NCBI GenBank assembly: GCA_020402865.1
Contig: JADBYT010000007.1
Coordinates: forward strand, 1-64,000
Direction: 5' to 3'
Source: Bacteroidota bacterium
GTDB taxonomy: Bacteria > Bacteroidota > Bacteroidia > Palsa-965
Length of the DNA stretch: 64,000 nt
How positions within the stretch are numbered: the first letter of the stretch is position 1; every line of letters starts with the position of its first letter. Shown here piece by piece: positions 3,369-56,348 of this stretch. A program made the position numbers and the translations under genes. The notes under the pieces were generated by a model, which searched no databases, was not told where the DNA came from, and was given only the letters and a program-made list of their open reading frames with translations.

Positions 3369-5018
3369 ATGACTGACACAACCTCTAAAGGCCATCCCAA
3401 AGGGCTTTATCTGCTGTTTGCCACCGAAATGTGGGAGCGCTTCAATTTCTACGGAATGCGCGCCATTCTTTCGCTGTTTCTGATTAATGCGTTAGCGTAT
3501 TCAGATGCCGAATCTTCTGTTATTTATGGTGGTTTTCTTGGTCTTTGCTACTTAACCCCGATGCTTGGCGGATTTATTTCCGACCGCTATCTGGGCAACC
3601 GTGCGTGCATTCAGCTGGGCGGTTTAACAATGGGTCTGGGACAGTTGCTGCTGTTTGTTTCGGCTTCGCTCTATGCTTCAAACCTCGAAACAGCCCGAAT
3701 GGTTATGTGGGTTGCATTGGGTGTAATTATTATGGGTAACGGCTTTTTCAAACCCAACATTTCATCCATGGTGGGCAGCCTTTATCCCAAAGGCGATAAC
3801 CGTCTTGACTCAGCCTTCACCATTTTCTACATGGGTATCAACCTCGGCGCACTTATTGGTAATGCAATTTGTTCGATTGTAGGTGATGTGAAAGTGGATG
3901 GCGTGCGCGATATTTCGGCCTTCAAATGGGGATTCCTTGCGGCAGGTTTGGCCATGTTCCTCGGGGTAATTATTTTCTATGTGTGGAAAAACAAATTCAT
4001 CCGCACACCCGAAGGAAACCCGATTGGCGCCCGTCCTGATCACAAAAATACACCCGCTGCCGAACAGGCCAAGTTTGCTCCGACAAGCATTGCACTCTGG
4101 GCCGGTATTGCAATTGTTCTGATCAATGTATTTCACTTTTTGGTAGGTCAGAACTGGATTTACTCGTTCATTTACAGCAGCGGTCTTGCGCTTGCCGGAT
4201 TGATCATTACCGATAAATCGCTCACCAAACAGGAACGCGACCGTATTTCGGTAATGTATATGGTAGGATTCTTTGTAATCTTCTTCTGGGCTTGTTTTGA
4301 GCAGGCCGGTTCTTCGCTCACCTTCATTGCCGATAAGCAAACAGACACTACGCTGCTTGGCTGGACCATGCCGCCCACACTGGTGCAGAACTTCAATGCT
4401 ATTTTCGTAATTGCGCTGGCGCCAATTTTTAGTGTATTGTGGATTATGCTGAACAAGCGTAACCTCGAACCCATTTCTCCTGCCAAGCAGGCTATTGGTC
4501 TTGCCATTCTTTCGCTGGGCTATCTGGTTATAGCCTTCCAGGTGCGCGATCTTGGCGGTGCAAAACTTGGTGTGATCTGGCTTATTGTAATGTATCTGCT
4601 TCACACCATCGGCGAACTTTGCCTCTCGCCCATTGGTCTTTCGCTGGTAGCCAAATTGGCTCCGGCCCGTTTCTCATCGCTGCTCATGGGTGTATGGTTC
4701 CTTTCAAACGCATCAGGTTATGCGCTGGCTGGTACTTTGGGAGCACTCATCCCGCAAGGTCCCGGCGAAATTGCTGCGGCTTCAGAAAAAGGTATTGATC
4801 TGGTGGCTGTTCTCAACAAAACCATTACGCCTACTGCCGAACAGCTTGCCACGCTCAAGGAACTCAAAATTTCCAGTGTTTATCCGAGCTTTGCCGGCTT
4901 CGAACTTCATAACCTGTATGAGTTTTTCATGGTATTCGTTATTCTCTCGGGCGTTGCAGCCGTACTGCTGTTTGCGCTTGTGCCGCTTATGAAAAAACTC
5001 ATGCACGGCGTTCGCTAA
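3369..5018 (+). CDS. POT-family proton-dependent di/tripeptide transporter
   Basis: 549 residues, rich in hydrophobic segments (about 12-14 membrane helices). The N-terminus KGLYLLFATEMWERFNFYGMRA carries the ExxER-type motif (EMWERF) that couples proton movement in POT/PTR2 transporters, followed by the GGFISDRYLGNR loop between helices 2 and 3. The family brings di- and tripeptides across the inner membrane with protons. It sits between a dipeptidyl peptidase and an OPT oligopeptide transporter, so dipeptides released by the peptidase are plausible substrates. A hairpin terminator follows at 5041. Length and motifs are normal. Confidence 0.95.
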   Translation: MTDTTSKGHPKGLYLLFATEMWERFNFYGMRAILSLFLINALAYSDAESSVIYGGFLGLCYLTPMLGGFISDRYLGNRACIQLGGLTMGLGQLLLFVSASLYASNLETARMVMWVALGVIIMGNGFFKPNISSMVGSLYPKGDNRLDSAFTIFYMGINLGALIGNAICSIVGDVKVDGVRDISAFKWGFLAAGLAMFLGVIIFYVWKNKFIRTPEGNPIGARPDHKNTPAAEQAKFAPTSIALWAGIAIVLINVFHFLVGQNWIYSFIYSSGLALAGLIITDKSLTKQERDRISVMYMVGFFVIFFWACFEQAGSSLTFIADKQTDTTLLGWTMPPTLVQNFNAIFVIALAPIFSVLWIMLNKRNLEPISPAKQAIGLAILSLGYLVIAFQVRDLGGAKLGVIWLIVMYLLHTIGELCLSPIGLSLVAKLAPARFSSLLMGVWFLSNASGYALAGTLGALIPQGPGEIAAASEKGIDLVAVLNKTITPTAEQLATLKELKISSVYPSFAGFELHNLYEFFMVFVILSGVAAVLLFALVPLMKKLMHGVR

Positions 5019-5040
5019 TACATTACACACAAACACACGT

Positions 5041-5078
5041 AAACAGCCACGTCAGAAGTAATTCACGTGGCTGTTTTA
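5041..5078 (+). terminator. Intrinsic terminator after the POT transporter
   Basis: A 12-base-pair perfect stem (AAACAGCCACGT pairing with ACGTGGCTGTTT) closes a short loop and runs into TTTTATTA. It lies 22 bases after the POT stop and 16 bases before the next start, so the OPT gene probably has its own promoter or depends on read-through. Confidence 0.8.
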
Positions 5079-5093
5079 TTACCTGGTTAAACA

Positions 5094-7133
5094 ATGAGCA
5101 ATGTTTTCAAGCCTTATGTAAACGATGGCACGCTGATGGCCGAGTTTACGCCCCGTGCCATTATTCTTGGCTGCATCTTCGGCGTATTGTTTGGCGCGGC
5201 CAATGTGTATCTGGCACTGAAAGCCGGACTCACAGTGTCGGCATCCATTCCCATTGCCGTAATGGCTATTTCCATTGGCCGTAAAGCGTTGCGCACCACC
5301 ATTCTGGAAAACAACATTATCCAGACCACCGGTTCGGCGGGCGAATCCATTGCTTCAGGCGTGGTGTTTACCTTGCCTGCATTCCTTTTCCTCAGTGCGG
5401 ATGCCAGCGGGGAAGTGTTTTTCAATTACTGGACCATTTTTGCGCTGGCCGTAATTGGCGGTTTGCTTGGCACGCTGATGATGATTCCGCTGCGCCGCTC
5501 GCTCATTGTACAGGAGCACGAAACACTTCCCTACCCCGAAGGCACGGCCTGCGCGCAGGTGCTCATTGCCGGCGACAAAGGCGGGCAGTTTGCACGCACG
5601 GCTTACCTTGGTCTGGCCGCTGCCGGTGTGTATGCCCTGCTGCAAAAATTCTTTCACTTTATTGCCGATGTACCCGGCTATCTGGTGAGTCAGACCAACA
5701 AATTCATGCCCTCGGCCCGCATTGATGCAGAGATTACGCCCGAGTATCTTGGCGTGGGCTACATTATCGGGCCGCGTATTTCGGGGCAGCTGGTGGCGGG
5801 CGGTGTGCTGGCCTGGCTGGCGTTGATTCCGCTGCTGGCGTTCCTTGTGCCGGCCGATGTAATTGCCGCGCAGCTGGTAAAACTCGGCTACCTCGAAAGC
5901 CTTACCACAGCTGGCGGTGCTGGCGGCTGGGATCCGCTTACCCACCATTTTGCCGATACTGCCGAGGCGGTGTACAAAGCCTTTGTACGCCAGATTGGCG
6001 CGGGCGCGGTGGCAGCGGGTGGCTTCATTACGCTTTTCAAAACATTTCCTACCATTGTTCGCTCCTTCCGCCAAAGCCTCGCAGCCATCCGCGGCGGAAA
6101 GGCAAACACCGAAACCCGCCGCACCGAAAACGATCTTTCTATCAAGGTAACGCTCTACGGCTGCCTAGCACTGGTGGCACTCATTACCGTGCTGCCTGTA
6201 ATTCCGGGCGATACACTGCTCGGTAAACTGCTTATTGGCATCCTCGTAATTGTATTCGGCTTTTTCTTCGTCACCGTATCAAGCCGCATTGTTGGCATTA
6301 TCGGCAGCAGCAACAGTCCGGTGTCGGGCATGACCATAGCCACCATTATGGGTACGGCCCTGGTGTTTATTGCCTTTGGATTAACCGGCAAAGCCTATGA
6401 GCCCATGGTGCTGGTGGTGGGCGGACTGATTTGCATTGCGGCGGCCAACGCGGGCAATACGTCGCAGGATCTGAAAACAGGCTTTCTCATTGGCGCCACG
6501 CCGCGTGCCCAGCAGCTTGCATTGTTTATTGGCGCCATCGTATCCACATTTGTGGTCGGTTTTGTTGTGCATCTGCTCGATACGCCCACAGCTGCACAGC
6601 AGGCTGAAGGAATTAACCACGCCATAGGCAATACGTACGCTGCACCGCAGGCTACACTTATGGCTACGCTCATTAAAGGCTTGCTCGGCAACGGCCTCGA
6701 CTGGCAGTATGTAATGGTGGGCGTGTTTCTGGCCGTTACGGTGGAGCTTTGCGGGGTAAACGCGCTTTCATTTGCCGTAGGTGCTTACCTGCCGCTTTCC
6801 ACCACACTGCCCATATTTGCCGGTGGCTGCGTAAAAGGTGTGGTTGACTGGAACGCCAAACGTAAAAAGCAGGAACCCGAAGAAGGCGAACTTGGCCGCG
6901 GCAGCCTCTTTGCCACCGGACTTGTGGCCGGCGGAGCACTTATGGGCGTACTGGCCGCCGCACTGAGTGTATGGCCCGCCAGTGCTGATGTACTTGCGAA
7001 ACTCGACCTGTCGGAAAGTATGAAAAATGCTTTGGGCAGCGGCGGTTATATGCTGCTGGGGGCTTTGTGCTTTGTGGCATTGGGTGTTATCCTGTTCCGC
7101 GTGGCCGTTAAAAAAGATGCGCACAAGGAGTAA
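5094..7133 (+). CDS. OPT-family oligopeptide transporter
   Basis: 679 residues, very hydrophobic throughout, with about 14-16 predicted membrane segments. The N-terminal FTPRAIILGCIFGVLFGAAN, the GSAGESIASGV segment and LPYPEGTACAQVL are typical of bacterial OPT proteins, which import oligopeptides (some members carry metal-siderophore complexes) across the inner membrane. The C-terminus is a short basic tail (KKDAHKE). Placement straight after the DPP IV and POT genes favours peptide uptake, but the exact substrate cannot be read from sequence. A small hairpin begins at the stop codon. Confidence 0.93.
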   Translation: MSNVFKPYVNDGTLMAEFTPRAIILGCIFGVLFGAANVYLALKAGLTVSASIPIAVMAISIGRKALRTTILENNIIQTTGSAGESIASGVVFTLPAFLFLSADASGEVFFNYWTIFALAVIGGLLGTLMMIPLRRSLIVQEHETLPYPEGTACAQVLIAGDKGGQFARTAYLGLAAAGVYALLQKFFHFIADVPGYLVSQTNKFMPSARIDAEITPEYLGVGYIIGPRISGQLVAGGVLAWLALIPLLAFLVPADVIAAQLVKLGYLESLTTAGGAGGWDPLTHHFADTAEAVYKAFVRQIGAGAVAAGGFITLFKTFPTIVRSFRQSLAAIRGGKANTETRRTENDLSIKVTLYGCLALVALITVLPVIPGDTLLGKLLIGILVIVFGFFFVTVSSRIVGIIGSSNSPVSGMTIATIMGTALVFIAFGLTGKAYEPMVLVVGGLICIAAANAGNTSQDLKTGFLIGATPRAQQLALFIGAIVSTFVVGFVVHLLDTPTAAQQAEGINHAIGNTYAAPQATLMATLIKGLLGNGLDWQYVMVGVFLAVTVELCGVNALSFAVGAYLPLSTTLPIFAGGCVKGVVDWNAKRKKQEPEEGELGRGSLFATGLVAGGALMGVLAAALSVWPASADVLAKLDLSESMKNALGSGGYMLLGALCFVALGVILFRVAVKKDAHKE

Positions 7134-7153
7134 AGCCGGCTACAGGCTTTTTT
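7132..7153 (+). terminator. Probable terminator of the OPT gene
   Basis: A short hairpin (AAAGCC pairing with GGCTTT, 7-base loop) overlaps the OPT stop codon and runs into TTTTTTC. The 6-bp stem is weak, but it is followed by the right U-tract. Confidence 0.5.
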
Positions 7154-7200
7154 CGTACCTTGTAGTAATAAAACAGGCTCGGTTTTTGCAAACAAACTGT

Positions 7201-7836
7201 ATGATGAAGATGAAACTGAACAAATTTCGCCTTGTATTGCTGGCCGGTGCGGCCTCTGCACTTACACTTACTGCTTTTACGCTCAATAATCATCCGCAGC
7301 AAACACCCGCCGCCAAACCACAAACTGCCACTGCCGCACACGTAGAATGGATTTCGATTGAAGAAGCCCAGAAACGCTGCGAAAAAGAACCTCGCCGCAT
7401 TTTTATCGACTTCACCACAAGCTGGTGTGGCTGGTGTAAGGTGATGGATCAGAACACGTTCTCAAACCCGGTTATTGCGGCTTACATGAACAAAAACTTC
7501 TACTGCGTAAGTTTCAATGCCGAAACCAGCGATACCGTAACCTTCAACGGCCAGCAGTTTTTTAACCGCAATCCCGGCACACCACGCAGTCCGCACGATT
7601 TTGCCATAGCCGTACTGCGCGGACAGATGTCATACCCCAGCTACGGCATCTTCAACAAAGCACGCAACTCGGTGTCTATTCTGCAGGGCTACATGGCCCC
7701 CGAACAGTTTGAACCTTACCTGCACTACTACGCCGAGGAAAAAGAAAGCGTAATGGCCTATGCCGACTTTCTCAAAACCTTCAAAAGCGAATTACCACCG
7801 GCTCCGCAAAACAAAACCGCCGCACCCGGCCATTAA
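7201..7836 (+). CDS. Thioredoxin-like protein with WCGWC motif, exported
   Basis: Starting at the ATG at 7201 gives 211 residues with a basic N-terminus and a hydrophobic signal segment (KLNKFRLVLLAGAASALTLTAFT); frame-open sequence upstream lacks coding character. The thioredoxin fold follows from about residue 48, with WISIEEAQKRCEKEPRRIFIDFTTSWCGWCKVMD carrying the redox pair Cys76 and Cys79. This CGWC type, followed by VMDQNTFSN, resembles the DUF255/thioredoxin_7 proteins thought to act as periplasmic disulfide reductases. The partner is unknown. The C-terminus is rich in Pro, Lys and Ala. The small HTH/coiled-coil gene begins 18 bases later. Confidence 0.85.
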   Translation: MMKMKLNKFRLVLLAGAASALTLTAFTLNNHPQQTPAAKPQTATAAHVEWISIEEAQKRCEKEPRRIFIDFTTSWCGWCKVMDQNTFSNPVIAAYMNKNFYCVSFNAETSDTVTFNGQQFFNRNPGTPRSPHDFAIAVLRGQMSYPSYGIFNKARNSVSILQGYMAPEQFEPYLHYYAEEKESVMAYADFLKTFKSELPPAPQNKTAAPGH

Positions 7837-44333: not shown

Positions 44334-44438
44334 TTCCTTCTCGGTGAATTCTATACTTTTATTTGCAGGGGACACTGAGTAAAAGTACTATTTAGATTGC
44401 TATCCCCGTTTATTCACCGAAAAAACCCCGGATCGAAA

Positions 44439-46208
44439 ATGAATTTAGGCACTCTTTTAGGCTTTCTGGCGATAATGTGTGCTTCTGCGCTCTCTGCTCA
44501 AAAACTTCAACGAGATACTATTGCCGTGCTTCCCGGAGTGGGTCCTACGGTAGCTTTTGAAAGAAGGTTTGACGGCAAAATTAAACAGGTTGGGCCTGAT
44601 AAATTTATCTGTGAACTGGCGCCTGACACTGTGGCTCGTCCCTGGTATTTTGTAAAGGAATATGTGATTACACCGCCCGATCTTTTTGATGATTGTATAT
44701 TTATTTCGCCGTTGAAGCAGGCGGAATCAAAAAGCGACCCTGAATTTTTCCTGCAACAACATTCAGATGAAATTTATTACGACCGAATAAAGTGGTTCAA
44801 ATCTGAAAGATCGCCCGGATATCGTGTTCCTGCATCTGCAAGATATTATCTGGATACTACCAAACTTCACTTCTATTCAAATTCATTAATCTGTTCCGAT
44901 ACGCTTACTCAGAAAATTGCATTACAATATTCTCCCCCTTTTTATTTCCGGAAAACAGAAGTTACCAACGCCGAATACCGTGAATTTGTAAACTGGGTAA
45001 GGGATTCCATTGCCCACACACATTTAAAGCATTTCAACCCAAACGGAACAATTAATTGGTTGACTAAAATTGATTATGCAGATAGTATAACCAGAGAGAA
45101 AACTGGCTTTTTTCTTCCAATTCATTTACGCTTTTGGGCTCGAATTGAAGTGGATTCCCGTAAACTGATTTACAAATTCCGAAACAAACCCACTGAACTT
45201 TCATCCGATACGCTTGCGGTTTATCCCGATACATTGAGTTGGATACATGATTTCAGTTTCAGTTTTAATGAGCCAATGACTAATATGTATTTCTGGCATC
45301 CGGCATACAACACCTATCCTGTGTGTGGTGTAAGTTACTGGCAATGTCTTGCATATCTCGACTGGCTGAATGTGAAAATGAATAAACGTGTTTACGGCAA
45401 AGGACTGAAAATAACCTGTGCCTTGCCTTCTGCTGCAGAATGGGATTTGGCAAGCACGGCCGAGAATGAAAACGGACAAATCCGTCTGCTTGGCGAAAAC
45501 TACAACCAGCTTTGCGACGATTCATGGCTTACTGATTTAGTTGTAAACAACCTTAGAGGCAAGCGTGCATTACAAGTTATCAGTCCCGAAGAATCGGCTG
45601 TCAACACAAATGTTGACACAGTAATCAGCAAGTCTCGTTACTTTACTTACCAATTGTTCGATTCCAGAAATCTTCGTTTATTACTTCACGAGAATAAACT
45701 GATGTTTGGCAATCTGACTATCGACGATGGTTTTCATACGCAGTCGGTAAATCATCAAACCCCCAATAAATATTTTGATGGACTAAAATTCCGTCGCATG
45801 GCACATAAAAGGCCAGCCAATACATACTTTAATGCACATTTAGACAACAATAGCATAAGTTACCTCGACGGGAATGTAAGCGAATGGCTGCGCAACGACA
45901 TAAACGAATGCTGGCGGCCTGTAATGACGAAGCGTCTAAACCACTGGTCGCCACTAATGACTGCCGAAGATTCTATTGTACGCAGCATCGAAAGCCTTTA
46001 TTTCCGCCAGCTTCCGGCGCAGGGCAAATTGGTGATGGGCGGAAACTGGTTCGACGAACGTTTCAGCTTGGCCAATGGCAAAAACCCCGCTGGCTACAAC
46101 GCCAAAACTTTCCTCAACCCGGCCGAAAAGCACTGCACTGTGGGTTTCCGGTATGTGATTTATGTAACGGCAGCCGAAACCACTACCCCGCAACCAAAGA
46201 AGCCCTAA
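44439..46208 (+). CDS. FGE-sulfatase (SUMF1) domain protein, GldJ/GldK-like, exported
   Basis: 589 residues from the ATG at 44439. Signal peptide LGTLLGFLAIMCASALSAQ. The FGE domain begins at about residue 180 with PPFYFRKTEVTNAEYREFVNWVRDS, includes SYWQCLAYLDWLN and LPSAAEWDLAST, and ends with SYLDGNVSEWLRNDI and KLVMGGNWFDERFSL. In Bacteroidota, GldJ and GldK carry this domain and take part in T9SS and gliding; others bind sugars. It has no lipobox, so it is not GldJ/K itself in the strict sense. An about 160-residue N-terminal extension is unusual. A thioredoxin-like gene follows 10 bases later. Confidence 0.75.
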   Translation: MNLGTLLGFLAIMCASALSAQKLQRDTIAVLPGVGPTVAFERRFDGKIKQVGPDKFICELAPDTVARPWYFVKEYVITPPDLFDDCIFISPLKQAESKSDPEFFLQQHSDEIYYDRIKWFKSERSPGYRVPASARYYLDTTKLHFYSNSLICSDTLTQKIALQYSPPFYFRKTEVTNAEYREFVNWVRDSIAHTHLKHFNPNGTINWLTKIDYADSITREKTGFFLPIHLRFWARIEVDSRKLIYKFRNKPTELSSDTLAVYPDTLSWIHDFSFSFNEPMTNMYFWHPAYNTYPVCGVSYWQCLAYLDWLNVKMNKRVYGKGLKITCALPSAAEWDLASTAENENGQIRLLGENYNQLCDDSWLTDLVVNNLRGKRALQVISPEESAVNTNVDTVISKSRYFTYQLFDSRNLRLLLHENKLMFGNLTIDDGFHTQSVNHQTPNKYFDGLKFRRMAHKRPANTYFNAHLDNNSISYLDGNVSEWLRNDINECWRPVMTKRLNHWSPLMTAEDSIVRSIESLYFRQLPAQGKLVMGGNWFDERFSLANGKNPAGYNAKTFLNPAEKHCTVGFRYVIYVTAAETTTPQPKKP

Positions 46209-48170: not shown

Positions 48171-48471
48171 AAATTGATCGTTTTTACAAAGAACGGAATT
48201 GCCCTCACCGGATAAGGAATTCCATGAGACCCAATATGAACAGGTTTTTACACAATAGTGGAAAACACCTGTTTTTCGATTATTTCACTGTTTTTTGTCA
48301 CAAGTCAGTCCATCTCACCTCAATCATAAGTAATTAATTTTCAGCACTATAATTGTATCATTAATTCATTTATCAACAAAACGGACATTGATTCACTAAC
48401 CGGGTATTTGAAATTAGGGTTTGTTGCTCTACATTTAACCAAACCTAAATAATCAAAAACCCAAATTGCCC
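48171..48471. other. Intergenic region with promoter
   Basis: About 300 bases upstream of the T9SS/collagen operon. Only the promoter at 48407-48437 was recognised; no gene, hairpin or repeat stands out. Confidence 0.55.
48407..48437 (+). promoter_or_regulatory. Bacteroidota promoter for the T9SS/collagen operon
   Basis: TTTG (48407-48410), exactly 19 bases, then TACATTTA (48430-48437), one mismatch from TAnnTTTG. It lies 34 bases before the ATG at 48472, the same distance as in the 33.5 kb promoter. Confidence 0.75.
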
Positions 48472-48966
48472 ATGACAAAACACATGTTAACAGGCTCCCT
48501 CCTATTACTGGGACTCTGGGCAAGGGGACAATCGGTAGAACAGAATGTTCTTTCTTCATCCGGCGATTTCTTTTCGAATTCGCAGGGAATGATTGAATGG
48601 ACATTGGGTGAACCGATGTCGGAAACGTATGGCAATGCGACCAACTTTCTGACACAGGGTTTCCATCAAACCATGCTCGACCCTAATTCGGTGCCCGAGC
48701 AGGTTATCGGAAATCTGAGTTTGTTTCCCAACCCATCCAGTGACCAGGTCACACTCCAGTTCGATGCAGAGAGCAGCGGTGTTTATACCGTTGAAATCTA
48801 CAACGCGCTGGGTCAGCAACTCAGCAGCCGTCAGCTCAACATTATGCCCGGCGGTTACCGACATGAAATAACCGTTCGTGATTTCACCGACGGTATTTAT
48901 TTTGTGACGGTTCGAAAAGTGGGAACTGATGCATCAGCATCATTCCGTGTAAACAAAGTATCTTAA
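48472..48966 (+). CDS. Short T9SS-exported protein with type A sorting domain
   Basis: 164 residues from the ATG at 48472 (a TTG 6 bases upstream is less likely). Signal peptide MLTGSLLLLGLWARGQ. Residues about 20-70 (EQNVLSSSGDFFSNSQGMIEWTLGEPMSETYGNATNFLTQGFHQ) are a recurring Bacteroidota domain with no known function. The last about 80 residues (LSLFPNPSSDQVTLQFDA to GIYFVTVRKV) are a type A CTD. So it is nearly all signal, one domain and export tag. It is 15 bases from the collagen-like gene and co-transcribed with it. Confidence 0.85.
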   Translation: MTKHMLTGSLLLLGLWARGQSVEQNVLSSSGDFFSNSQGMIEWTLGEPMSETYGNATNFLTQGFHQTMLDPNSVPEQVIGNLSLFPNPSSDQVTLQFDAESSGVYTVEIYNALGQQLSSRQLNIMPGGYRHEITVRDFTDGIYFVTVRKVGTDASASFRVNKVS

Positions 48967-48981
48967 ATTCAAACCCAACCT

Positions 48982-51024
48982 ATGAAAAAAGTATTACTGC
49001 TTCTGTTTTCTGTAATTGCAGTACAGTATGCGGTTGCTCAGGCACCTACCCAGATGAAATATCAGGGTGTGGCCCGCAATGCTGCCGGTGCTCCGATTGC
49101 AAACGGAACCATCACTGTGAAATTTGATATTCACTCCGGTTCTGCCACAGGCCCGGTTGTTTACACCGAAACACATGCCGGTGTAACCACCAACCAGTTT
49201 GGCCTGTTCAATATCAATATTGGTTCAGTAACTCCCCTCACCGCCTCTATTTTTGGTGCTGGTACTGAGTTTATGGAAGTTTCTGTTGACTTTGGCTCTG
49301 GTCTTACCAGCCTGGGTACATCACAACTTCTTTCTGTTCCCTACGCCATGTATGCCGAAACTTCGGGCACAGCCGGTCCTGCCGGCCCCACAGGTGCTAC
49401 TGGTGCAGCTGGTCCTGCCGGCCCTTCTGGTCTCGACGGTGCCACTGGTCCGCAGGGCCCTGCCGGTCCTTCTGGTCTCGACGGTGCTACCGGTCCGCAA
49501 GGCCCTCAGGGTGTAGCTGGTCCTTCTGGCCTTGATGGCGCTACAGGTCCGCAAGGTCCTGCCGGTCCTTCTGGTCTCGACGGTGCTACCGGCGCACAAG
49601 GCCCCCAAGGTATTCAGGGTGTAGCTGGTGCTAACGGTGCTACAGGTGCTACCGGCCCGGCTGGTGCAAATGGTGCAAATGGTGCTACAGGTGCTACCGG
49701 CGCTGCTGGTACAAATGGTGCAAATGGTGCTACAGGTGCTACAGGTCCTGCTGGTCCGCAAGGCGCACAGGGCATTCAGGGTGTGGCTGGTCCGGCTGGT
49801 GCTACAGGTGCTGCAGGTCCTCAGGGCGCTCAGGGTATTCAGGGTGTGGCTGGTCCGGCCGGCGCTACTGGCGCTACCGGTGTGGCTGGTGCCACAGGCG
49901 CTACTGGTGCTACTGGCCCCGGCGGTATAACTGGTACTACCGGTTATCACCCCAAATTCTTGACCGCCAATACACTTGGCAACTCAATCATGCAGGAAAA
50001 TACCAACGGCAACGTTTCAGTAAACATTGCTCCGTCAATCAGTTATCGCTTCTACGTATATCAGCAGCAGCTTACTGTTAACGGCGATGGTCAGTCATCA
50101 ATGTTCGGCTACCGCACCCGCGACAGCCAGAACGATGGTACCGGCTATGCACAGAGCGTGGCTAACGATGCTACCCGCGGTTTCAACTTCTGGGGCGATT
50201 TGTACACCTTCGGCGTAGGTGGCTGGAACTACAACGACTATACCCGTTGCGGCGGTACCTTTGGTGCTGAAGTTTCTGGTACTTACTGGGGTTCACTCGG
50301 CTACCGTTCTTCTGCACTGTTGAACTACGGTGTGTATGGCTCTGCTGCTTATGCAAACGGTGGCGGCCGTCTCTCTAACGGTGCTGCAACCGGTATTGGT
50401 GGTGCTTTTGCCGGCGATCTCATGGGTGCATGGGTACGTGGCGATGTAATGGGTCTTACCACCTCTGGTTCTATGTACGCTGCTTTCAACGTAGGTAATA
50501 CCTTCAACACCGGCTACCATGCTGATCTCGTAAACACCAACGGTAACGTAACTCCGGCTTACGCGGTTACTTCTACCAAAGTAAAAGTGTACGACGATGG
50601 CGCTGGTCAGCTTGCCAGCGGTACAACCCGTGTAAACTTCACACCCGAATTTGCGGCACTCGTAGCTGGTGGCAAACCCACCGTTACCATTACCCCGCAG
50701 GGTCAGTGCAATGGTCTTTACATTGTTTCTGTTGACGAAAAAGGCTTCAACGTAGCTGAACTCAACAACGGTACCAGCAGCGTATCATTCTCATGGATTG
50801 CTGTGGGCACCCGCGTGGATGCTGCCAAAGCTGAAGTTCCGGCTGAACTTACCAACCCGAATTTCGCAGGAAATATGCAGGGTGTAATGTTCAATGAAGG
50901 CAACACCGAACAGTCTGGACAGCCTGTATGGTGGAATGGCTCTTCTCTCCAGTGGTCAGCTCCCCCGAGCTTGTCGCGCGAAGAGAAAGGCAACCTGCTG
51001 AGCCGCGGATCTAAGCGCCAGTAA
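48982..51024 (+). CDS. Collagen-like secreted protein with 64 Gly-X-Y triplets
   Basis: 680 residues. Signal peptide [17 protein letters not shown]. Residues about 20-128 are a Bacteroidota domain often placed before collagen or fibre repeats ([31 protein letters not shown]). Residues 129-320 (49366-49941) are 64 uninterrupted Gly-X-Y triplets, Pro-poor and rich in GAT, GPQ and GLD, built from repeats such as [12 protein letters not shown]. The globular C-terminal part (about 321-680) has Gly-, Asn- and Tyr-rich strands and no recognised family; no T9SS CTD is seen at the end ([10 protein letters not shown]). It is the second gene after a strong promoter and ends in a terminator. Probably a surface fibre or adhesin. 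Confidence 0.88.
49366..49941 (+). repeat. Collagen-coding triplet repeats
   Basis: 576 bases code 64 uninterrupted Gly-X-Y triplets. Longer units recur almost exactly, such as the one coding [12 protein letters not shown] (four copies of the GPSGLDGAT part) and the one coding [15 protein letters not shown] (two copies), which suggests growth by duplication. Confidence 0.85.
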
Positions 51025-51044: not shown

Positions 51045-51079
51045 TAAATCCCGTCCGGAAAATTCCGGGCGGGATTTTT
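51045..51079 (+). terminator. Terminator of the collagen-like operon
   Basis: AAATCCCGTCCGG pairs with CCGGGCGGGATTT (one mismatch) and is followed by TTTG. Confidence 0.8.
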
Positions 51080-51116: not shown

Positions 51117-52115
51117 ATGAATAGCCCAAAAAAACATCAGTCACCGCATCCCCATTTCGTTGCCGTTTTGGGGCAACGAATATGCGTGGCTGTGTTGTGT
51201 GTAATGCTTTATTCTACAACGCTTCACGGTCAGCATCAAAAACCGGGGCTTGATGAGACCTATTTCCGAATGATTATAGGTTATCTGGCTGGCGACTCAA
51301 TGAAAGGCCGTTTGCCCGGCACGGTGGAAGAAAACAGAACTGCCGGATTTATTGCAGAGCAGCTGAAACTGGCCGGTTGTAAACCACTGAAGAAAAAATT
51401 CATTCATCCGTTTACCTATTCCAATCCCGATTCAGTGCTTACTACATCGGCTGGCAATGTGCTGGGGGTAATTGACACACGCTCGTCTTATTGCATTGTG
51501 GTGAGCGCGCATTACGATCACATTGGCATGGGAAAGCATCATTCAAAAGCACCTTTTTCGAAGCAAATACACAACGGAGCCGACGACAATGCCAGCGGTG
51601 TGGCGCTTCTGCTGGGGCTTGCCGGCTGGTGCAGCAAGAACAAACATCTGCTGAACTACGATGTAGTGTTTGCCGCATTCAGCGGCGAGGAAGACGGGCT
51701 GCACGGTTCTGATGTGTTTGTACGCAGCGGCATTACTGATACCTCAAAAATTCTCTGCAACCTCAACTTCGATATGCTGGGCCGACTTGATTTGCTGAGG
51801 CCGGTACTACGTATTGACGGCGCTACTGATTTTGCCGGCTGGAACAATGTGCTGCCTGCCGATTCGGCCAAAGGCTTTCTGGTTTTGCGCCGCAGCAACC
51901 TCATAAAAGGAGGCTCCGACCATTGCAACTTTTCCGACAGGCACATCCCGGCCCTGCTCATCACCACAGGCTTACACAACGATTATCATACGCCCGAAGA
52001 TGATGAAACGCGCATCAATTACGCTGGCATGAATGCCATTGCCGAATACCTGCGCATGCTTATGCTCAATTTGCAAGGCAGAAAAAAACTTGTGCAGGAA
52101 TTTCATGCCTGCTGA
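51117..52115 (+). CDS. M28-family zinc aminopeptidase-like protein, exported
   Basis: 332 residues. Signal segment ICVAVLCVMLYSTTLHG. The metal ligands of M28 are in place: SAHYDHIG (His132), GADDNASGVALLL (Asp), FAAFSGEEDGLHGSD (Glu-Glu), NFDMLGRLD (Asp) and HNDYHTPED (His). A two-zinc aminopeptidase, most likely periplasmic or exported. The start is 6 bases after a TAATTTCG box, so the mRNA may be leaderless. It lies just after the collagen operon's terminator and is convergent with the hydrolase gene. Confidence 0.88.
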   Translation: MNSPKKHQSPHPHFVAVLGQRICVAVLCVMLYSTTLHGQHQKPGLDETYFRMIIGYLAGDSMKGRLPGTVEENRTAGFIAEQLKLAGCKPLKKKFIHPFTYSNPDSVLTTSAGNVLGVIDTRSSYCIVVSAHYDHIGMGKHHSKAPFSKQIHNGADDNASGVALLLGLAGWCSKNKHLLNYDVVFAAFSGEEDGLHGSDVFVRSGITDTSKILCNLNFDMLGRLDLLRPVLRIDGATDFAGWNNVLPADSAKGFLVLRRSNLIKGGSDHCNFSDRHIPALLITTGLHNDYHTPEDDETRINYAGMNAIAEYLRMLMLNLQGRKKLVQEFHAC

Positions 52116-55577: not shown

Positions 55578-56348
55578 TTAATGCGAAATGGTAAGACGAC
55601 GGGTAACCGTGCTGTTGCCCATGCGGAAAGAGTACATGTACACACCGGCAGGCAATGCGGCTGTTTCGAGTGTGAAACGGTTGCTGCCTTTTTCAGCATC
55701 AATTGTCTGGCGGGCTACTTCGGCGCCAAGCATGTTGTAAAGGTGAAACTCCACCTGACCGTTTACAGGAGCGTTGAAACGGAATTCGGTGCGGGCATCA
55801 GAAGGGTTGGGCGCGGGTGCATTTACAGCAAAACGCAAAGATTCAATAACAGGAAGGCTGTTGGGGGCATCAATTTCAATGCGGTAACCGGTAAGTGTGG
55901 CCGGAAATGCGGTGGGTACAGAAAGTACATTTACCGTGGCAGTGAAAAATACAATGATCGGATAAACACCATTTGAAGCAGGCCCGCCAAGTTCCTGACC
56001 CGAAGTTGCGGTGCCGGTTACTCCCACACAGCCGAATGAACCGCCGGGCATTACACCGTTTACAGGATTGGACAGGTAGGTAAAACCGGCAGGCAGGCCC
56101 GAAACGCTGTCGATCACAATCTGCGTGATGGGGAATGTGCCAAGTGCTGTAACAGTATCAGGATCCACATGAACCTGAAGATCGGTTGTATAGGGCGAAC
56201 CTACAAAAGCCACGGGCAGATTAGTAACAGTATCAGGGAGGATGCCGTAATCGTTAGGACCGCTAAACACGCTGGAATTTATGGTACACTGTGCACCAAG
56301 AAAAGAGGTAAATGCGGTAACAGCAAGTAGCGTAAAGAGTTTTTTCAT
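55578..56348 (-). CDS. T9SS-exported protein with type A sorting domain
   Basis: 256 residues. Signal segment KLFTLLAVTAFTSFLGAQ. The central part is beta-rich, Gly/Thr/Val-rich and without a recognised family. The last about 80 residues (LRFAVNAPAPNPSDARTEFRF to GVYMYSFRMGNSTVTRRLTISH) are a type A CTD with its typical PNPSDARTEF motif, so it is exported through T9SS. It is 20 bases after the STAS gene on the same strand. Confidence 0.88.
   Translation of the reverse strand: MKKLFTLLAVTAFTSFLGAQCTINSSVFSGPNDYGILPDTVTNLPVAFVGSPYTTDLQVHVDPDTVTALGTFPITQIVIDSVSGLPAGFTYLSNPVNGVMPGGSFGCVGVTGTATSGQELGGPASNGVYPIIVFFTATVNVLSVPTAFPATLTGYRIEIDAPNSLPVIESLRFAVNAPAPNPSDARTEFRFNAPVNGQVEFHLYNMLGAEVARQTIDAEKGSNRFTLETAALPAGVYMYSFRMGNSTVTRRLTISH

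Follow-up and report, generated by a model that had tools for sequence, protein, structure and literature searches.

The collagen-like gene described here was found, together with the small gene that precedes it, to belong to a two-gene module that recurs in related genomes. In the window, i.e. the whole stretch of 64,000 nucleotides that was analysed, the module encodes a small protein with a T9SS sorting domain followed by a collagen-like fibre. The pair may be a split T9SS substrate, whose small protein would export and anchor a probably trimeric fibre in trans, and we consider the chances for and against this reading to be evenly balanced. The role of exporter or anchor was suggested by the presence of this pairing in many related bacteria.

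Composition of the two-gene locus

The two genes are closely spaced, with 15 nt between the stop codon of the small gene and the ATG of the fibre gene (Table 1). An earlier note on this DNA had ascribed a T9SS CTD to the small upstream protein, and this was confirmed, as the protein scored 44.4 bits with Por_Secre_tail of Pfam (PF18962, cut-off 27) and 37 bits with TIGR04183 of NCBIfam (cut-off 23), both scores placing it among proteins having a type A sorting domain. The source genome (G000) also encodes PorU (NF033707, 1352.8 bits, cut-off 420). The small protein consists of a putative signal peptide (judged by eye), a body of about 48 aa, to which no family in Pfam or NCBIfam gave a name, and the type A sorting domain. 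A model of this sorting domain, when compared with solved structures using VIA-align, matched the mirolase CTD (8qb1) with a Z of 10.4 and 1.8 Å over 76 residues, and DUF3244 (4g5a) with a Z of 11.6.

Searching solved structures with the sequence of the body gave only chance-like matches to antibody chains (best E 0.15), and the small protein, the head and the tip had zero matches in PHROGs at E ≤ 0.01. In a read-through model of the small protein and the fibre head (A3 alignment, 16 rows) the sorting domain was good and the head fair, with the body at a pLDDT below 50 and with no trustworthy body–head interface. A body that is unfolded in the model fits a domain that would fold on a partner, and it also fits a thin alignment.

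Table 1. Positions of the features at and around the two-gene locus, numbered as in the window
Feature	Position	Strand	Basis
Small protein gene, 164 aa, proposed T9SS carrier/anchor	48472..48966	+	ORF; Por_Secre_tail and TIGR04183
Alternative start of the small gene, TTG (besides ATG at 48472)	48466		
Body of the small protein, with the motif ...SSGDFFSN..GMIEWTLGEPMSETY......TQGFHQ	48532..48675	+	Body profile (A1), E 5.5e-24
Type A T9SS sorting domain of the small protein	48721..48924	+	PF18962 across aa 84-151; model compared with 8qb1
Collagen-like fibre gene, 680 aa, without sorting domain	48982..51024	+	ORF; Pfam and NCBIfam
Probable Sec signal peptide of the fibre, 20 aa	48982..49041	+	Judged by eye from the sequence
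N-terminal domain (head) of the fibre, common to paired fibres	49042..49356	+	Head profile (A2); NF053851 Bdello_MAT_N
Collagen shaft, 64 G-x-x triplets, or 65 counting the final one	49366..49950	+	Triplet count; PF01391
Tip region of the fibre, ~357 aa	49951..51021	+	Homologues; first ~200 residues without confident monomer model
Beta domain at the C-terminal end of the tip, perhaps similar to H-type lectins or phage tail fibres	50578..50820	+	Tip residues ~210-290, pLDDT ~75-92; weak Foldseek matches
Promoter-like site, weak	48408..48435	+	Matches 9/12 letters of the consensus; site count of the region within that of shuffles
Terminator-like hairpin, 14 pairs	51046..51077	+	Longest stem of 4 sites; shuffles expect 5.2 sites
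M28 peptidase gene, conserved neighbour of this tip type	51117..52115	+	PF04389, 125 bits, cut-off 21.3

The fibre scored 97.6 bits with Collagen of Pfam (PF01391, cut-off 27.2), which places it among the bacterial collagen-like proteins. The 64 uninterrupted triplets that had been counted earlier were found again, the longest uninterrupted G-x-x run extending over aa 129–323 and giving 65 triplets when the final GYH is included. Nucleotide blocks do recur inside this run, as had also been noted, with TRF reporting units of 45 nt (4.2 copies), 99 nt (1.9 copies, 85% matches) and 63 nt (2.2 copies, 87%), and this would fit growth of the run by duplication. Across 12 loci having the same head and tip, which represent species and not strains, the longest run varied between 10 and 70 triplets, being 46 to 70 in 10 of the 12. 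The absence of a T9SS sorting domain from the fibre also held true, with Por_Secre_tail, CHU_C, TIGR04183 and TIGR04131 giving zero matches at E ≤ 1 using Pfam and NCBIfam.

The fibre head of about 105 aa had zero matches in Pfam and resembled NF053851 (Bdello_MAT_N, E 9.3e-12), the head family of the mosaic adhesive trimers (MAT) of Bdellovibrio. Sequence searches of solved structures returned nothing at E ≤ 1, whether the head profile or the tip was used, and comparing the head model with structures in VIA-align pointed to no clear family. The tip was modelled poorly as a single chain (mean pLDDT 45), its residues 1–196 being under pLDDT 50, and a region that stays unmodelled as a monomer is what an intertwined trimer would lead one to expect. 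The tip model suggests glycan binding, because its C-terminal beta domain weakly matches tailspike, pyocin-fibre and H-type lectin folds. The Pam1 tailspike (7eea) was matched at E 9.6e-4 across 71 columns, Helix pomatia agglutinin at E 0.012 and R-type pyocin fibres at E 0.013, and viral tail-fibre and H-type lectin models were matched too, all of them to be taken as leads only with a model of this quality.

A viral origin of the tip was considered and rejected, as the tip had no relative in the viral contigs that were scanned. Two tip relatives of about 50% identity and without the head lie in contigs deposited as MAGs of Lysobacteraceae and Proteobacteria (L042, L045), which would reflect either transfer or binning error. 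The source genome itself holds two tip paralogues that have other N-terminal parts and no head match (C2:233869-234720 and C33:12643-13545).

Pairing of body and head across the class

Tip relatives were found at 14 loci in genome contigs and, at E ≤ 1e-10, in 18 of 148 relative genomes, and relatives of the small protein were taken from 13 of 59 genomes. The neighbourhoods of these relatives contained the same pair, with five loci (L086, L087, L089, L091 and L095) keeping body and head together with another tip. When 247 genomes of the class were searched using a body profile (A1) and a head profile (A2), the body was found in 140 and the head in 156, and comparing the lists by hand gave 138 genomes with both, two with the body only (G098, G244) and 18 with the head only. 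PorU (NF033707) had a match in 240 of the 247 genomes, above cut-off in 230. None of the seven genomes without a PorU match had either body or head, and among four with a marginal PorU match (E 8.4e-5 to 8.7e-4) the body was found in none and the head in two (G089, G181).

The genomic arrangement was analysed in 40 regions centred on the body, mostly from the upper part of the listed body matches, which together held 45 body genes. An A2-type fibre gene adjoined the body gene on the same strand in 36 of these 45 cases, the carrier coming first in 33 and the fibre first in three. A second set of 20 regions, picked mainly for longer body proteins, had a head gene adjoining the body in 12, with a thirteenth (L169) cut by the region edge. 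When all loci are counted, including some that the fibre had led to, 65 of the 86 body genes were paired. The co-variation between body and head (r 0.458) was compared with that between sorting domain and head (r 0.369), and the bootstrapped difference of −0.055 to 0.237 spans zero.

No head gene stood beside the other 21 of the 86 body genes. Among the unpaired body genes 14 are type A, and 12 of these adjoin one same gene (tblastn), which we take to be alcohol-dehydrogenase-like; because of this common neighbour the 12 are probably one orthologous locus. This solitary arrangement of body plus type A domain beside that gene (L090, L092, L093, L107–L109, L113, L115–L117, L119 and L120) is conserved in several genera. 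Four of the six type B bodies scored as unpaired have a long upstream ORF that runs off the region (L153, L155, L156, L169). That of L169 carries the head, so this body is paired; L153 has a head match one gene further, and for L155 and L156 the head match of the genome sits on another contig. The body profile also misses divergent bodies, as in genome G072, scored body-negative. One of the three heads of this genome (L177) adjoins a protein of type B that matches the body weakly (E 0.004), and 653 nt from another head (L179) lies a type A protein whose motif looks similar by eye.

The head was also found in four viral contigs, with a body or sorting-domain gene adjoining in two (L146, L147). 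The head-type fibres of viral contigs lie at 4425-6374 (L146), 4461-5654 (L147) and 4935-7252 (L148), the first two having a small sorting-domain protein directly upstream and L148 also having a match to a DNA transposition protein (PHROG 296, E 1e-22).

The paired fibres

Fifty-nine fibres with complete 3′ ends were scanned with Pfam and NCBIfam at E ≤ 1e-3. Bdello_MAT_N was found in 54 and a T9SS sorting domain in none of the 59. Their shafts and tips gave Collagen in 35, S74 in 12, C1q in three, Lcl_C in two and a YadA head in one, together with kelch matches. In these fibres the head is thus the constant part and the shaft and tip are the variable ones, in line with what has been described of MAT fibres (PMC10769870). 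The bit scores with NF053851 stayed below its cut-off of 60, at 45 for the fibre of the window and at 48.6, 35, 37.7 and 42.4 for four relatives.

One body on two types of sorting domain

A sorting domain was found on 83 of the 86 body proteins, 72 having type A and 11 type B, and went undetected on three (L159–L161). PorP/SprF was encoded in the region of eight of the 11 type B body genes vs none of six type A genes in the longer-body set, or near nine of 12 type B cases when one in the source genome is counted. That genome has two head genes and two bodies, both paired. Its second pair (contig C17; L032, L105) comprises a head-bearing collagen fibre, then a protein in which the body is combined with an SprB repeat and a domain of type B (60 bits with TIGR04131, cut-off 35), and after it PorP/SprF (263 bits with TIGR03519, cut-off 90.55). 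At this locus the sorting domain has been exchanged naturally, body and head staying the same. Type B proteins are described as held by PorP-like proteins (PMC9143113), and in published experiments a sorting domain directed the export of mCherry, with mCherry lacking that domain as control (PMC10994853).

Proposed export and anchoring of the fibre

In the mechanism that we propose, the fibre would be a surface fibre having a secreted head, a collagen shaft and a receptor-binding tip, and it would probably be a trimer. After Sec export, the body of the small protein would bind the fibre head in the periplasm, whereupon the sorting domain would carry the complex of body and fibre through the T9SS translocon. 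The same domain would then keep the fibre on the surface, by way of PorU attachment for type A and by a PorP/SprF hold for type B. Direct binding of body to head, export in trans, T9SS dependence, the trimer, the surface position and an adhesive function are what we infer here. Joint export of the pair, one of two possibilities that the earlier note had raised, came out as the best-supported reading, considering the recurrent pairing, the 59 fibres without a sorting domain and the presence of the body on both types A and B, and its support is of a comparative kind.

The main rival is that the small protein would be an anchor only, exported alone by the T9SS to become a surface receptor for the head, with the fibre crossing the outer membrane otherwise. 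Two genomes whose PorU matches are marginal at best (G089, G181) do have the head, without a body match and with no sorting-domain gene found near the head, and distantly the head also occurs in Bdellovibrio (NF053851), which argues that it is not tied to the T9SS. For the Bdellovibrio fibres the authors propose that the MAT head binds a surface element, which they call unidentified (PMC10769870). Still, we find this rival rather unlikely, since no second outer-membrane export route is known to be encoded at these loci, and since anchors of other kinds than T9SS proteins would be expected as partners too, with none seen in a search that covered the body and the sorting domains.

We think it quite improbable that the T9SS instead reads the head or the tip of the fibre directly, without a sorting domain, the small protein being an accessory such as a chaperone or a plug. 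Fibres outnumbering bodies in some genomes would agree with such a direct substrate, as in the 2.3 Mb genome G223 with 23 head matches vs one body match, where seven head loci (L175, L176, L178, L180–L183) had no sorting-domain gene within the ~1–3 kb fetched. However, not one of the 59 fibres had a recognised sorting domain, and the small protein, which has one, reads as the substrate. Genomes G089 and G181, being T9SS-poor and having no carrier, as well as G223, do count against a strict rule of pairing.

Slightly more improbable still is that the two are envelope genes with separate tasks on a shared transcript, their proteins never meeting, as might be thought in a genome where T9SS substrates are numerous (at E ≤ 0.01 the small protein gives 73 matches, mostly across the sorting domain), but the body, distinct from that common domain, adjoins the head in either gene order and is found on either sorting-domain type.

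Returning to the split T9SS substrate, a class-wide two-part route, in which carriers with the ~48-aa body would export and anchor fibres having MAT-like heads but no sorting domain, and in which the carrier's type of sorting domain, A or B, would determine the way the fibre is retained, seems to us to fall a little short of an even chance. If true, the body would be the first candidate partner for the MAT-type head. T9SS cargo is currently predicted by a sorting domain on the protein itself, and should the signal act in trans, such predictions would miss many surface fibres, considering that 156 of the 247 sampled genomes have the head. With its two genes the pair would also be simple to work with in gliding laboratory flavobacteria.

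Relation to known fibres and export systems

The fibres resemble the Bdellovibrio MAT fibres (PMC10769870; NF053851) in having a related N-terminal domain, a constant head and swapped tips that include S74, and differ from them in their collagen shafts (35 of the 59) and in the partner gene with a T9SS sorting domain. The word ‘collagen’ is absent from the MAT paper (PMC10769870). The small protein, scoring above the cut-offs of both TIGR04183 and PF18962, is like the T9SS type A substrates, but unlike in the usual ones the signal resides on a separate protein of 164 aa with the fibre having none. At the C17 locus, the order of body, SprB repeat and type B domain followed by PorP/SprF is similar to the type B systems SprB–SprF and PG1035–PorP (PMC9143113), although here the body adjoins a collagen fibre without a sorting domain.

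With Lcl of Legionella and Scl1/Scl2 of Streptococcus the fibre shares the Gly-X-Y run, and Lcl_C occurs in two of the 59 related fibres. In contrast to those proteins, the fibre scored only 105.6 bits with NF046116 (cut-off 500) and 104.8 bits with NF038329 (cut-off 325), it has a different head and a different tip, and no LPXTG was seen in it. The proposed route is also akin to the piggyback (hitchhiker) export of peroxisomes and Tat, where one subunit bears the targeting signal for a complex (reviewed in PMC9251779). Neither piggyback export by the T9SS nor a T9SS carrier for a fibre without a sorting domain was found in a literature search that covered a minor part of the subscription journals and preprints.

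Expression and neighbouring genes

The earlier note had also taken promoter and codon usage as signs of high expression. The promoter did not bear this out, as its site matches the consensus in 9 of 12 letters and is one of six in the region, compared with 4.1 ± 2.0 in shuffles, and no exact TTTG/TANNTTTG site was found near the locus. Codon usage, determined as CAI relative to genes from the genome's own ribosomal operon region, supported the claim for the fibre gene (CAI 0.727, third of the 42 long ORFs in the window) and not for the small gene (CAI 0.54), indicating high predicted expression for the fibre only. The M28 gene had a CAI of 0.55.

The earlier note mentions neither the N-terminal domain nor the swapping of tips nor the neighbouring M28 gene. 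M28 directly followed in 11 of the 12 loci having head and tip in one ORF, the window included, with L049 being the one without it, and it was also present at L038, where the tip is cut by the contig end. Loci in which it follows this type of tip include L039, L041, L043, L048, L088, L100 and L101. Among six strong tip loci without the head (L042, L044–L047, L101), only L101 had M28, the contig of L042 ending about 140 nt past the tip. The M28 protein of the window keeps HxD, GADDNASG, EE, NFD and YH, which we take to be the metal-binding and catalytic residues of M28, and together with its PF04389 score this places it in the family. In 13 aligned copies the EE pair was kept in six and replaced by HE in seven, with the other metal-site motifs mostly kept; the residue changed to His is the first Glu of the pair, presumably the general base. 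Membership of M28 in the operon was considered and rejected, as a 14-pair terminator-like hairpin stands between it and the fibre gene, and because of this hairpin we treat M28 as a conserved neighbour, probably on a transcript of its own. That it trims the fibre or the ligand of the fibre would be a guess.

Elsewhere in the window, positions 44397-46208 encode an FGE-sulfatase-domain protein related to GldK (TIGR03525, 147.5 bits, cut-off 350), and positions 55578-56348 of the minus strand encode a further protein with a type A sorting domain, as found using Pfam and NCBIfam.
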